NCBI GenBank assembly: GCA_003142815.1
Contig: PLNP01000011.1
Location: 102,951-166,950 of the forward strand
Length of the DNA stretch: 64,000 bases
Reading direction: 5' to 3'
Origin: Rhodanobacteraceae bacterium
GTDB lineage: Bacteria > Pseudomonadota > Gammaproteobacteria > Xanthomonadales > Rhodanobacteraceae
Positions 408-58,039 of the stretch are shown piece by piece. Both the position numbers and the translations under genes were made by a program. Each line of letters starts with the position of its first letter. The stretch's first letter is position 1. The notes under the pieces were generated by a model. It saw only the letters and a list, made by a program, of their open reading frames with translations. It was not told the origin of the DNA and made no database searches.

Positions 408-1205
408 ATGGACATGACTTCGTCGCCGATCACGGCGGCGATCCTCGCCGGTGGCGCGGCGACGCGGCTCGGTGGCCGCGACAAGGGGCTCGAACCGCTC
501 GGTGGGCGACCCCTGGTCGCGTGGGTTATCGCTGCCCTGGCAGAAATGGATGCTTTCAAGCCCTCCCCTTCAAGGGGTGAAGAGGCGCGCTTGCGAGCCA
601 CAGGCTCGCGCGTCGATGAACGCCCGCAGCAGGAGCGGAGGGCCGGGTTGCTTGGCGAGGACGGGAAGTCCGAGCTTAGCAACGTGGGTGGGGATGGTGT
701 CCGCTCCGGCGAGAAACCCATCGCGGCTGAAGCCGCTCCTAGAATTGGTCGTGCGGATGTGCTGATCGTCGCGAACCGGCACCTCGACGACTACTCGCAC
801 TACGCACGCACGATCTGCGACGACATCACCGGTTTTCACGGCCCGCTCGCGGGTGTCGCCGCGGCGCTTTCAACGTCTGAAACAGACTGGCTGCTGACGG
901 TGCCGGTCGATTGTCCCGAGCCACCTCGCGATCTCGTCGTCCGTTTGCGCGGTGGCGCACTCGAATGCAGCGCGAACTGCGTCATCGTGCATGATGGCGA
1001 ACGTCGCCAACCATTGTTCGCGTTGTATCGACGCGAACTCGCCGTCTCCGCGGCAGATGGTGTCGCCGCGGGGTGGGGCGTATGGCAATGGCAGGAATCG
1101 ATCGGCGCGCGTGAGCTTGATTTTTCCGACCGGCGCCGGCAGTTTGAGAACCTCAACACGCCTGAAGATTTCACCGCTTATGCCAAGCTCCGGCTCGCTC
1201 GCTGA
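408..1205 (+). CDS. mobA: Molybdenum cofactor guanylyltransferase MobA, with an atypical insert
   Basis: N-terminal AAILAGGAATRLGGRDKGLEPLGGRPLVAWVI nucleotidyltransferase signature; followed by moeA and moeB. Confidence 0.88.
   Translation: MDMTSSPITAAILAGGAATRLGGRDKGLEPLGGRPLVAWVIAALAEMDAFKPSPSRGEEARLRATGSRVDERPQQERRAGLLGEDGKSELSNVGGDGVRSGEKPIAAEAAPRIGRADVLIVANRHLDDYSHYARTICDDITGFHGPLAGVAAALSTSETDWLLTVPVDCPEPPRDLVVRLRGGALECSANCVIVHDGERRQPLFALYRRELAVSAADGVAAGWGVWQWQESIGARELDFSDRRRQFENLNTPEDFTAYAKLRLAR
546..745 (+). repeat. Repeat-derived in-frame insertion inside mobA
   Basis: Contains hairpins CCCCTTCAAGGGG and GCGAGCCACAGGCTCGC and the arm TCGCGGCTGAAGCCGCTCCTA (721-741); encodes a low-similarity stretch between WVIAAL and VLIVANRHLDDY; boundaries approximate. 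Confidence 0.65.
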
Positions 1206-39519: not shown

Positions 39520-39954
39520 GACTGCTCCCGCGAGACAGAAAAAGCACGTCCGAGCCAGTTTCGCCAGTGCGAAATTGTATGAAGACTTTGACGCAACTGA
39601 CTGATTAGGCTAACTTAATTACTGCTTGCGCAATTCGCCTACTAAGCGCGGCGCGTAGTGTAGTCCCGCACGTCGGATGATGACAGTGCGCTGTCACGCG
39701 AGGGCATCAACGTGCCACGCGCTTGCGCAGGCAGTCGGTCCAGACCGCCGGACTCGGTCATCACCGCATCATCGACGATCGCAATGTGATCGGTGCGGCA
39801 CTGCGCTTCCTGCGCGGTGAAACGGTCGGCGAGCGCGTCGTGTCGTCGCCGAATCTGCCGTATGGGATTGCTTGAACACGCAAGGTCGATGCACGCAGTT
39901 TCCATTCGCCTCGAGTCCTGCGACGAGGATCCGCACAAGTTCGCATTGGCGTGT

Positions 39955-40030
39955 TCGCGGCTACGCCGCTTGCACCTTTTTCCGGTGCTCCCGCAGAAGC
40001 GGCTGTTGTAGGAGCGCTGCAAGCGCGATT
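39955..40030. repeat. Intergenic repeat, second copy of the 3656-3754 family
   Basis: TTCGCGGCTACGCCGCTTGCACCTTTTTCCGGTGC...GTAGGAGCGCTGCAAGCGCGA. Confidence 0.82.
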
Positions 40031-40126
40031 CCTCGAGGGTTCCCAACGCAGCCGCCGATCTGCACTGCACCGCGGTCGCGATGCCCTACGCGTAGAATAG
40101 GCAGACCACCGAGTTCCGGATCCGCC

Positions 40127-43100
40127 ATGAGCACGACCGCCCAGCACATCGTCGCCACCGAGCCGTCCAGCGATCAGGCGCCGCTGCGTTTCGTCACCGC
40201 GGCCAGCCTGTTCGACGGCCACGATGCGGCGATCAACATCATGCGCCGGCTGATCCAGGCGCAGGGCGCCGAGGTCATCCATCTCGGCCATAACCGATCG
40301 GTCGAGGACGTCGTGCGCGCGGCGTTGCAGGAGGATGCCGACGCGATCGCGCTCTCCAGCTACCAGGGCGGCCACATCGAGTACTTCAAGTACATGGTCG
40401 ACATGCTGAAGGAGCGCGGCGCGGCGCATATCCGCGTGTTCGGCGGCGGCGGCGGCACGATCACGCCGGAGGAAATCCGCGAACTGCAGGCCTACGGCGT
40501 CGAGCGTATCTATCACCCGAACGACGGCATGCATCTCGGTCTTGTCGCGATGATCGAGGACGTGGTCAAGCGCGCGAAACGGGGTCAGAGTCATTTTTCG
40601 CGTGACATGGATGGCAAGGACAGTAGCGCCCGAAAAAATGACTCTGACCCCATTTCGATCGACGATGAGATTGCAGTCGGCCACGCCCTGACCGCGATCG
40701 AGGAAGGCCGCCACGACGAGGCCGAACTCGCGCGCCTGCGCAAGCAGTGGCAGCTCGCCGGCGGCAAGACGCCGGTGGTCGGCATCACCGGTACTGGTGG
40801 CGCCGGCAAGTCCAGTGTCGTCGACGAATTGCTGCTGCGCTTCCTGCACGCGTTCCCGCAGATGCGAATCGCTGTGCTTGCGGTTGACCCGACCCGGCGC
40901 CGCTCCGGCGGCGCGCTGCTCGGCGACCGCATCCGCATGAACTCGCTGCGCTCCAAGCGCGTGTTCATGCGCTCGATGGCGACGCGCCGCCAGCACGCGG
41001 CGACCAGCGTCGTGCTGAAGGATTGCATCGCGTTCCTGAAAGGGCAGGGCTACGACCTCGTCATCGTCGAGACCGCCGGCATCGGCCAGTCCGATTCGGA
41101 GATCGTCGACCTCGTCGATTTCCCGATGTACGTGATGACCAGCGACTACGGCGCGGCGAGCCAGCTCGAAAAGATCGACATGATCGATTTCGCCGAGTTG
41201 ATCGTGCTCAACAAGTTCGACAAGCGCGGCGCCGAGGACGCGCTGCGCGACGTGCGCAAACAATGGAAGCGCAACCGCGTCGCGTTCCAGCTCAAGGACG
41301 ACGAGGTGCCGGTCTATCAGACCATCGCCAGCCAGTTCAACGATCCTGGCGTGACCTGGATGTTCACGAATCTGTGCCGGCTGTTGCGCGAGAAGCTGCA
41401 TCTCGGCGCCGCCAGTGCCCCTGTAGGAGCGGCGCCAGCCGCGACGGGCAAAGATCGGAACACAACGGTCGCGGCTGGCGCCGCTCCTACAATCGCAACA
41501 GCGCGAATCGACTGGAAACCACACTTCGACACCACCATCAAGGAACCGCGCGCGACCGTGCTGATTCCCGGCGCGCGCGTGCGCTACCTCGCCGAGATCG
41601 CCGAGCAGGGCCGCGGCATCAATGCCGGCATCGACCAGCAGGCCGAGGCCGCCGATCGCGCGCAGTCGTACTGGCAGTCGCTGCGCGACATCGGCGATGC
41701 GAGACTGCCGAAGGGGCTGGATCTCTACGAGAGTACGGATGTAGCACCCGCTCACACGGCGACCTCCCATCCCGTTCGTCCTGAGGTATCGAAGGATGAA
41801 CGGGCGCGCGGGGTCGAGCATTCGCCCTTCGATACCTCAGGACGAACGGAAAATGTCACGTCAGGACGAACGGAGCAAGTCGATCGCAGCCTGCTGACGC
41901 TGCGCCAGCGCTACAACGACACGATCCACGCGCTCTCGTCCGATTCGCTGAAGCTCCTACGTGAATGGCCGGCGCGGCTGAAGTCGATCACCGACGAGAT
42001 CACCGAATACGAAGTGCGCGGCAAGGCGATCAAGGTCGAGAACTACCGGGTATCGCTCTCGCACCAGAAGATCCCGAAGATCGCCGCGCCGACCTACAAG
42101 TCGTGGGGTGAACTGCTCGTGTTCCTGCAGAAGGAAAACCTGCCCGGCTACTATCCGTACACCGGCGGCGTGTATCCGTACCGCCGCACCGGTGAGGACC
42201 CGATCCGCATGTTCGCGGGCGAGGGCACGCCCGAGCGCACCAACCGGCGCTTCCATTATCTCAGCCTCGGCCAGCCGGCCACGCGCCTGTCGACCGCGTT
42301 CGACAGCGTCACCCTGTACGGCGAGGACCCGGCGCCGCGTCCGGACATCTACGGCAAGATCGGCAACTCCGGCGTCAACGTGCCGACCCTCGACGACATG
42401 AAGAAGCTGTACTCGGGGTTTGACTTGTGTTCGCCGACGACATCGGTGTCGATGACGATCAACGGCCCCGCGCCGATCATCCTCGCGATGTTCATGAACA
42501 CCGCGATCGACCAGCAGATCGAGAAATACCTGCGCGAGGATTCCGCGCGCTGGAGTGCCGCGCAGAAGACGATCGACCAGTTGTTCGAAGGCCGCCCGCG
42601 TCCCGAGTACAGCGGCGCGCTGCCGAAGGGCAACGACGGCCTCGGCTTGGGCCTGCTCGGTGTGGGTGGCGACCAAGTCGTCGATGCGGAAACCTACGCG
42701 AAGATCAAAGCACGCACCTTGTCTACCGTACGCGGCACCGTGCAGGCCGACATCCTGAAGGAAGACCAGGCGCAGAACACCTGCATCTTCTCGACCGAAT
42801 TCGCGCTGCGCATGATGGGCGACATCCAGCAGTATTTCGTCGACCACAAGGTGCGCAACTTCTACTCGGTGTCGATCTCCGGCTATCACATCGCCGAGGC
42901 CGGCGCGAACCCGATCTCGCAGCTCGCCTTCACGCTCTCCAACGGCTTCACGATCGTCGAGTACTACCTCGCGCGCGGCATGAAGATCGACGACTTCGCG
43001 CCGAACCTGTCGTTCTTCTTCTCCAACGGCATGGACCCGGAATACACCGTCATCGGCCGCGTCGCCCGCCGTATCTGGGCGCGCGCCATGCGCGAGCGCT

Positions 43101-43873
43101 ATGGCGCCAGCGCACGCAGCCAGATGATGAAGTACCACATCCAGACGTCCGGCCGCTCCCTGCACGCGCAGGAGATCCAGTTCAACGACATCCGCACCAC
43201 GCTGCAGGCCATGTACGCGCTGTTCGACAACTGCAACAGCCTGCACACGAACGCCTACGACGAGGCGATTACCACGCCGACCGAGGAAAGCGTGCGCCGC
43301 GCGGTCGCGATCCAGATGATCATCAACAAGGAACTCGGCCTCAACTTCTGCGAGAACCCGTGGCAGGGCAGCTTCATCGTCGACAACCTCACCGACCTCG
43401 TCGAGGAAGCCGTCTACAAGGAGTTCGAGGCGATCAGCGAACGCGGCGGCGTACTCGGCGCGATGGACACCATGTACCAGCGCGGCAAGATCCAGGACGA
43501 GTCGATGGTCTACGAACACAAGAAGCACGACGGCAGCCTGCCCCTGGTCGGCGTCAACACCTTCCTGCCCAAGGACCACGCCGGCGAAATCGTCACCGAG
43601 ATCGAACTGATCCGCTCGACCGAGGAAGAGAAAAGCCAGCAGATCGCGAACGTGCTTGCGTACCAGCAGAACCGCAACCACGCACGCGTTGTCCCTGTAG
43701 GAGCGGCGCCAGCCGCGACAGGATCTGGCACCAGTCTGACCTATCTCCAAAACACTGCGCGCGACCGCAAGAACGTGTTCGCGGCGCTGATGGAGGCGGT
43801 GAAGACGCACTCGCTCGGGCAGATCAGCCATGCGCTGTATGACGTGGGTGGGGAGTATCGGCGGAATATGTAG
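40127..43873 (+). CDS. icmF: Fused isobutyryl-CoA mutase (B12-binding + MeaB-like GTPase + mutase domain)
   Basis: [36 protein letters not shown]12 domain; [22 protein letters not shown]-loop; mutase domain with [33 protein letters not shown]. Confidence 0.95.
40577..40655 (+). repeat. Palindromic repeat inside icmF: GGGGTCAGAGTCATTTTTCG ... CGAAAAAATGACTCTGACCCC
   Basis: Arms 40581-40600 and 40631-40651; in-frame, encodes [25 protein letters not shown]. Confidence 0.92.
41422..41491 (+). repeat. Palindromic repeat inside icmF: TGTAGGAGCGGCGCCAGCCGCGAC ... GTCGCGGCTGGCGCCGCTCCTACA
   Basis: Perfect 24-bp arms 41422-41445 and 41468-41491; encodes [24 protein letters not shown]. Confidence 0.95.
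41772..41873 (+). repeat. Palindromic repeat inside icmF: CCGTTCGTCCTGAGGTATCGAAGG ... CCTTCGATACCTCAGGACGAACGG plus partial third arm
   Basis: Perfect 24-bp arms 41772-41795 and 41826-41849; partial arm 41859-41873; encodes [14 protein letters not shown]...[16 protein letters not shown]. Confidence 0.95.
43696..43720 (+). repeat. Single arm of the TGTAGGAGCGGCGCCAGCCGCGAC repeat inside icmF
   Basis: Identical to arm at 41422-41445; encodes PVGAAPAAT. Confidence 0.93.
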
Positions 43874-55912: not shown

Positions 55913-56746
55913 TTAGCGATGCCCGCCATCCGTGGCATCGCCATCCTTCGACTTGTTATCCTTTTTCGGAACCGGCTTCGCTCGCGGCGCCGGTCGCTGC
56001 GCCGCGCCCTTGGCGGGTGGTGCCGGATGGCCGGCGTTGCTGGTTGGCGGACGACTCGCCGGCGCCGAACGTTGGCTGGAAGGCGGCCGCGAAACCTGGG
56101 TCTGTGGGCGCGGTGCGGCCTTGGCGGGTGATTGCGGACGATTGTTCTGCGGTCTTGCGACAGCGGCGCCGGATGGCTGCGGCCGGTTGACGGGCGGGCG
56201 AGGTGCAGCCGACTGCGTCCGGTTGACGGGCGGGCGAGGTGCGACCGATTGCGACCGGTTGACGGGTGGGCGAGGTGCGACCGATTGCGACCGATAATCC
56301 GGGCGCGATGGTTGCATGGTCGGGCGCGGCGGCGGCCGGTGCGCAAATGTTCGATGGCTCCAGCTATCACGGTCGCGGTACCAGGAGCGACTGCGATAGT
56401 GCTGGTCCCAGTAGGCACCGAGGACAAACGCGACAATCGGGATGCCGACGCGCGCGCCGTAATCGGGCAGCAGCACGCGCTGGTTCTGATAGTCATATTG
56501 CAGAAACTGCCCGCTGACCCAACCGCGGTTGTCCTCCGCCTGCACGTCGCACCATTCCCATCCATCGGTGCACCCGTAGACCGACACCGGTATGCCGGCC
56601 GGCAAGGTCATGATTGACGGATATCCGATATCCGGTCCTGCGCGCAGGCTGACCGCGCCGATCACATAGGCATCCGCCGCATCCGAACGGGTCGGGGCAA
56701 GTGCGCTCAAGCCCAACAGAAACAACAAGACGGCGAAATGCTTCAT
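55913..56746 (-). CDS. Secreted SH3-like domain protein with Pro-rich repetitive tail
   Basis: Signal peptide; AVSLRAGPDIGYPSIMTLPAGIPVSVYGCTDGWEWCDVQAEDNRGWVSGQFL; repeated SVAPRPPVNRSQ. Confidence 0.85.
   Translation of the reverse strand: MKHFAVLLFLLGLSALAPTRSDAADAYVIGAVSLRAGPDIGYPSIMTLPAGIPVSVYGCTDGWEWCDVQAEDNRGWVSGQFLQYDYQNQRVLLPDYGARVGIPIVAFVLGAYWDQHYRSRSWYRDRDSWSHRTFAHRPPPRPTMQPSRPDYRSQSVAPRPPVNRSQSVAPRPPVNRTQSAAPRPPVNRPQPSGAAVARPQNNRPQSPAKAAPRPQTQVSRPPSSQRSAPASRPPTSNAGHPAPPAKGAAQRPAPRAKPVPKKDNKSKDGDATDGGHR
56181..56297. repeat. About three tandem 36-bp units inside the SH3-like gene
   Basis: CGGTTGACGGGYGGGCGAGGTGCRRCCGAYTGCG units. Confidence 0.85.
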
Positions 56747-57699: not shown

Positions 57700-57865
57700 G
57701 CGTAGGATGGGCCGCAGCGTGCAGGTAGGGTGGGCCGCAGCGCCGCCGGTAGGGTGCGCAGCGCCGTACGTAGGGTGGGCCGCAGCGCCGTAGCGCGAGT
57801 CCCACACCACGATTCGCCCTCAAAGGTGGGACTCGCCGCTACGCGGCTGCGGCCCACCCTACGAG
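57700..57865. repeat. Compound repeat: tandem GTAGGGTGGGCCGCAGCGC units plus inverted copy
   Basis: Four direct partial copies, then GCGAGTCCCAC ... GTGGGACTCGCCGCTACGCGGCTGCGGCCCACCCTACG. Confidence 0.88.
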
Positions 57866-58039
57866 CGTCGCGCCTTCAACACTCGGGAGCGAGACGCACT
57901 ACGCAAAGGTGTTCGAAGTCAGCAAATCCTGTGCCGTGGGTACAAGCGTCTGTACCCGCCGAAGTAGCGGGGCCAGCTGCATCAGTTATTTTACATAATA
58001 GACATTGCGCACGTTTTAACCAAGGCATCCAGCCAGGAC

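Follow-up and report, generated by a model that had tools for sequence, protein, structure and literature searches.

Composite palindromic repeats inserted in frame in a surface loop of MobA in a bacterium in or next to Dokdonella

The molybdenum cofactor guanylyltransferase MobA of a Rhodanobacteraceae bacterium, whose genus lies in or next to Dokdonella, carries an insert that is composed of dispersed palindromic repeats, keeps the reading frame and is absent from homologues. In all likelihood, this insert arose from composite elements that came to lie in frame in a surface loop, is translated as part of the protein and leaves an enzyme that most likely works. We propose that short dispersed palindromic elements (a core, an inner element within the core and a REP of the GTAG type) landed in the surface-loop codons of mobA; as their lengths sum to a multiple of three and they are open in the mobA frame, they would be translated into an unstructured loop of about 67 residues. 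Gene-breaking insertions would be removed by selection, so that the survivors would be the in-frame ones in loops and linkers. The gene lies in the window, i.e., the whole stretch of 64,000 nucleotides that was analyzed.

Identification of MobA and extent of the insert

The window begins with the last part of der/engA (KH-like domain), which is followed by mobA, moeA, and a ThiF/rhodanese gene. The two features that define the insertion are as follows.

408 to 1205, plus strand: mobA, molybdenum cofactor guanylyltransferase, 265 aa with the insert (matches to TIGR02665, NTP_transf_3 and 1e5k; Foldseek)
549 to 749, plus strand: extra coding sequence, 67 codons over the usual loop length, with edges uncertain by a few codons (segment-length comparison)

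TIGR02665, Pfam NTP_transf_3, and E. coli MobA (1e5k) each align to the open reading frame (ORF) in two stretches, about aa 5 to 45 and aa 117 to 260, and nothing aligns between them. The TIGR02665 score of 150.6 bits, from a match split in two by the insert, is just under the cut-off of 151.85. Membership in the MobA family follows from the model match together with the fold and the presence of the invariant residues L13, G15, G16, R20, G23, K26, D138, G145, G149, and D168; all residues that are invariant in an alignment of 54 sequences are retained in the insert-bearing protein. The protein sequence between the two MobA-matching stretches reads MDAFKPSPSRGEEARLRATGSRVDERPQQERRAGLLGEDGKSELSNVGGDGVRSGEKPIAAEAAPRIGRAD, and a candidate insert-derived peptide of the predicted protein is SELSNVGGDGVR.

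For comparison, 80 MobA loci were collected by a scan of one genome per species, and segment lengths from GRPL to LIVA were compared, leaving out one further locus in which this segment was not covered. It has 90 aa in the window MobA versus a mode of 23 (range, 21 to 28) in 78 alignable homologues, all of which lack conserved sequence of the same length. The original prediction of a repeat-derived, in-frame insert of about 65 to 70 aa is thus borne out: by homologue segment lengths, it comprises 67 aa, or 25% of the protein, and recognizable repeat DNA extends from about 554 to 742. The only other long segment (51 aa, corresponding to an insert of about 28 aa) was found in Rhodanobacteraceae bacterium SCNH_5 (JAACZU01), another species of the genus.

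Composition of the insert

The insert is a composite in which a core palindrome of about 46 bp is split by an inner element and followed, after a spacer of 20 bp, by a REP of the GTAG type.

556 to 577, plus strand: 5' portion of the palindromic core, TCAAGCCCTCCCCTTCAAGGGG, identical to the consensus of the SCNH_5 copies
578 to 684, plus strand: inner element (about 107 bp) within the core, containing GCGAGCC/GGCTCGC, GGGCCGGGTTGCTTGGCGAGG and GAGCTTAGCAAC (further copies in the genome)
685 to 700, plus strand: 3' part of the core, TGGGTGGGGATGGTGT (core consensus from SCNH_5 copies)
721 to 742, minus strand: REP unit CTAGGAGCGGCTTCAGCCGCGA of the GTAG-REP type, reading CTAG in the MobA copy (genome pattern matches)

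The sequence pieces quoted when the insert was first described are all located here, namely, CCCCTTCAAGGGG at 565 to 577, GCGAGCC at 593 to 599 with GGCTCGC at 603 to 609, and TCGCGGCTGAAGCCGCTCCTA at 721 to 741. The best match to the repeat DNA of mobA elsewhere in the genome (C19:22146) shows 86% identity over 147 bp including the core ends (E value, 8e-41), followed by matches with E values of 1e-21 and 5e-16 and then weaker ones. Besides C19:22146, copies of the inner element are present at C13:41623, C26:193410, C57:11034, C32:22602, C21:113038, and C8:52429. The core, too, has further copies in this genome. The repeat matches are beyond chance, since these other copies exist in the genome and a genome search with the reversed core pattern as a control gave no matches.

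Exact pattern matches of the REP family in the genome number 29; allowing up to 3 mismatches raises the count to 84, versus 61 for the reversed control at that threshold. The GTAG tag is present in 36 of 58 REP copies, inverted REP pairs are common, and the CTAG of the MobA copy is one base off. At the level of the family, this is a GTAG-tagged short palindrome repeated in the genome, and in MobA as well as in other hosts, the REP lies wholly inside a real gene, in frame, and is absent from homologues. Y1_Tnp (RAYT-like) genes (L288 to L291) occur at three places in the genome; a simple scan found no REP matching this family beside them. No target-site duplication or parent insertion sequence (IS) was identified for the palindromic core or the other elements.

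The region had originally been described as hairpin-rich, which holds for the individual repeats. It does not hold for the insert as a whole, whose predicted RNA fold is only mildly stronger than that of shuffled sequences (z = -1.8). Local hairpins in the RNA might permit removal of the insert after transcription by self-splicing or its skipping by ribosome bypassing, so that a MobA of normal length would be made. We regard this as scarcely credible given the z score and the fact that every accepted intragenic copy preserves an open frame, for which there would be no need if copies were skipped. A search with Rfam of the whole window and of positions 380 to 900 likewise returned no family at gathering score. 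A Twister-sister match on the minus strand, i.e., the other strand, reached 18 of the 34 bits needed and was taken as chance.

Predicted structure and function of MobA

An AlphaFold2 model built with 53 homologues has a mean pLDDT of 85, with ten-residue blocks mostly at 89 to 98 outside the insert and at 48 to 56 across aa 71 to 110. The best PDB matches in a Foldseek search are E. coli MobA structures (TMt, 0.89). The insert bridges helix 36-45 and strand 117-121 and is, according to this model, probably a disordered loop, while the remaining MobA fold is predicted with confidence. In such an alpha/beta fold, helix-to-strand connections are found at the sheet end opposite the nucleotide site.

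NarG and the alpha subunit of formate dehydrogenase are encoded in the genome, and both NarG and formate dehydrogenase need MGD. Because mobA is the only MobA match in this genome, the insert-bearing enzyme probably still works. The suggestion in the original prediction that MobA function may be affected is therefore unsupported: the insert occupies a flexible loop between a helix and a strand, the invariant residues are kept, the protein is the sole MobA beside NarG and formate dehydrogenase, and the structure prediction combines a confident fold with a low-confidence loop.

An insertion that damaged MobA, leaving a young or decaying pseudogene whose frame is still open by chance, could be argued from the size of the insert, a quarter of the protein, and from the core copy, whose identity to the consensus might mean that the insertion is too young for visible decay. 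MobA also seems to be absent in some congeners, as 6 of 16 genomes of the genus have no MobA match, 4 of them being at least 99% complete. We nevertheless consider a damaged gene improbable, since mobA has neither a stop codon nor a frameshift, its invariant residues are all intact, both flanks of the insert are folded confidently in the model, it is the single MobA gene beside two MGD-dependent enzymes, and the mobA of a related species is likewise still open and bears an insert in this loop.

The related insert in SCNH_5

The MobA of SCNH_5 is the most similar in the genus to that of the window, and its insert is a plain core repeat, TCAAGCCCCTCCCTTCAAGGGGAGGGTTGGGTGGGGATGGTGTT. Both inserts occupy the same loop and have the same core family and orientation; only the core ends are common to the two. 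Across the two mobA genes, 52% of the four-fold sites differ, for a random expectation of 67% at third positions, whereas 2 of the 38 shared core bases differ, and each copy is near the consensus. This disparity favors two separate, fairly recent insertions into the same loop, as judged from the sequence comparison. One ancestral insertion common to both species that was later lengthened or shortened would account for the shared loop, core family and orientation as well as for the closeness of the two proteins. Homogenization of one old insertion is possible because core sequences throughout the genus are almost the same, which could mimic low divergence. In view of the nearly unchanged core next to strongly diverged four-fold sites, we find a single ancestral event rather unlikely; it would alter one step of the proposed scenario, the independence of the two insertions.

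Long inserts at the same loop in two species could also mean that the loop has acquired a role, e.g., in the docking of MobB, MoeA, or a chaperone for molybdoenzymes. This appears very improbable, given that the inserts have nothing but the core ends in common, that the loop is predicted to be unstructured, and that the same kinds of repeats occur in unrelated proteins. Repeat-derived sequence that is tolerated in a surface loop remains our preferred reading.

Members of the core family keep the reading frame in the mobA genes of both species as well as in the SCNH_5 genes for DsbD and formate dehydrogenase. Unrelated genes of the genus thus hold the same element in frame, which resembles the behavior of Rickettsia palindromic elements. 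In the alpha subunit of the SCNH_5 formate dehydrogenase (L164), the core-type repeat insert reads PTPSPPTPRAS...AHPLEGEGLN. The expansion of the core in SCNH_5 is striking, with at least 116 copies of the 37-bp core when up to 3 mismatches are allowed, the majority of which are identical, versus 0 to 5 copies in the other genomes of the genus.

In-frame insertions in other genes

A genome-wide process had been suspected from a second gene with an in-frame repeat insertion, and further such insertions are indeed present in unrelated genes of this genome. Pattern searches for the REP and two other repeat families, together with the core and inner-element matches, yielded about 100 sites, and a codon-usage model trained on the window served to classify them; the genome census consists of pattern matches only and is a lower bound. 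About ten in-frame intragenic sites were accepted, in MobA, an IcmF-like mutase (4 sites), DsbD, PolA, MetG, SucB, and HrpA, the last five of these hosts being assigned with NCBIfam. By position, the insertions in MetG, SucB, and PolA lie between domains.

This second gene most likely corresponds to the IcmF-like ORF, which carries four in-frame insertions from three unrelated repeat families.

39872 to 43873, plus strand: IcmF-like fused acyl-CoA mutase (B12-binding, MeaB and mutase parts), true start probably at about 40124
40581 to 40651, no strand assigned: in-frame pair of GGGGTCAGAGTCATTTT repeats (GQSHFS...KNDSDP)
41416 to 41491, no strand assigned: in-frame REP pair (10 protein letters not shown, ...VAAGAAPT)
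41772 to 41849, no strand assigned: in-frame pair of GTTCGTCCTGAGGTATCGAAGG repeats (VRPEVSKDE...SPFDTSGRT)
43690 to 43722, plus strand: in-frame single REP (PVGAAPAAT)

Four variable linkers recur in the IcmF-like mutase across the genus and carry different repeats according to the species (L255 to L268). The GGGGTCAGAGTCATTTT pair is located in linker 1 in the window genome and in linker 2 in several other species, linker 3 has a CATTCC-type pair in genome G008 and REPs in genome G012, and the linkers of some species are short and plain. Similarly, the DsbD linker contains a REP pair in the window genome (L031) and core repeats at the same place in SCNH_5 (L158).

Among the sites examined, no gene was clearly split by a repeat, as judged by ORF ends rather than by homology at every site. 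Four sites with the same phase and a stop looked like borders of neighboring genes, and sites whose two flanks code in different phases looked like gene boundaries, with the exception of L137 (C16:8427-8472). Here, a REP pair next to or within an ABC-ATPase gene coincides with an assembly gap (N) and is possibly another intragenic REP. Two candidate in-frame sites, L149 ("GGSGGSRD") and L117 ("PPALQGEG"), were dropped as chance pattern matches at 2 to 3 mismatches, and L172 in SCNH_5 was dropped as a 5' extension upstream of the likely start codon.

Although coding sequence presumably makes up most of the genome, most repeat copies are located outside genes, a distribution to be expected if harmful insertions were lost. 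The core and the REP are open in 4 of 6 frames each, the TTCG repeats in 5 of 6, and the composite in 3 of 6, so no special mechanism is needed to explain in-frame survival.

Other repeats were seen in the window as well. Three tandem 36-bp units (TGCGGCCGGTTGACGGGCGGGCGAGG...) are located at 56178 to 56293, and an inverted repeat with 35-bp arms flanking GTAGGGTGGGCCGCAGCGCC, another repeat-like element, is located at 57761 to 57871.

Comparison with known systems and implications

A survey of GTAG/CGTC REPs, which introduced "REP-decorated" proteins, reported REPs inside ORFs in many species, with intragenic clusters coding for 43 to 82 aa, and reasoned that insertions which inactivate a gene do not persist (BMC Genomics 2013, PMC3733652). 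The present genome resembles that survey, in which GTAG-type units reside in the ORFs of many unrelated housekeeping proteins, often as dimers, with DNA polymerase I and tRNA synthetases among the hosts. In contrast, the REP is the smaller part of the MobA insert, which consists mostly of a longer palindromic family and its inner element, and one other gene, encoding the IcmF-like mutase, contains three unrelated repeat families. Rickettsia palindromic elements, which are the classic example of this behavior, are described in PMC10969869 as about 150 bp long; they lie in frame in unrelated genes and are translated as extra peptides. Palindromic elements in frame in unrelated genes are common to both systems, whereas the host here is a gammaproteobacterium and the repeats are GC rich; the likeness is one of behavior, and no sequence relation is claimed. 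With MITEs (ERIC etc., PMC10969869), the elements share their short, non-autonomous and dispersed nature and occasional in-frame fusions, while neither a parent IS with common terminal inverted repeats nor a target-site duplication was identified for those of the MobA insert. The enzyme itself has the same fold and conserved residues as E. coli MobA (1e5k), which lacks the 67-aa loop.

A literature search found nothing on Dokdonella repeats. The MobA insert adds to the examples of a known but rarely studied process by which repeats are turned into protein sequence, and it is set apart by its composite make-up and by the involvement of several unrelated repeat families. As a tentative and rather doubtful generalization, linkers and loops of enzymes that Dokdonella needs might be permanently available for insertion to at least five unrelated families of palindromic repeats that replace one another in frame over evolutionary time. 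If so, repeat DNA would be a main source of new linker sequence in Dokdonella, as in the IcmF-like mutase, DsbD, and MobA. The case of MobA is a clear gammaproteobacterial one in which mobile-looking repeats have become coding sequence in an enzyme that is probably needed by the cell. The genus provides a natural experiment, as the same linker of the IcmF-like mutase or DsbD carries different repeats or none depending on the species, and the tolerance, turnover, and possible use of repeat-derived linkers are directly testable within it.
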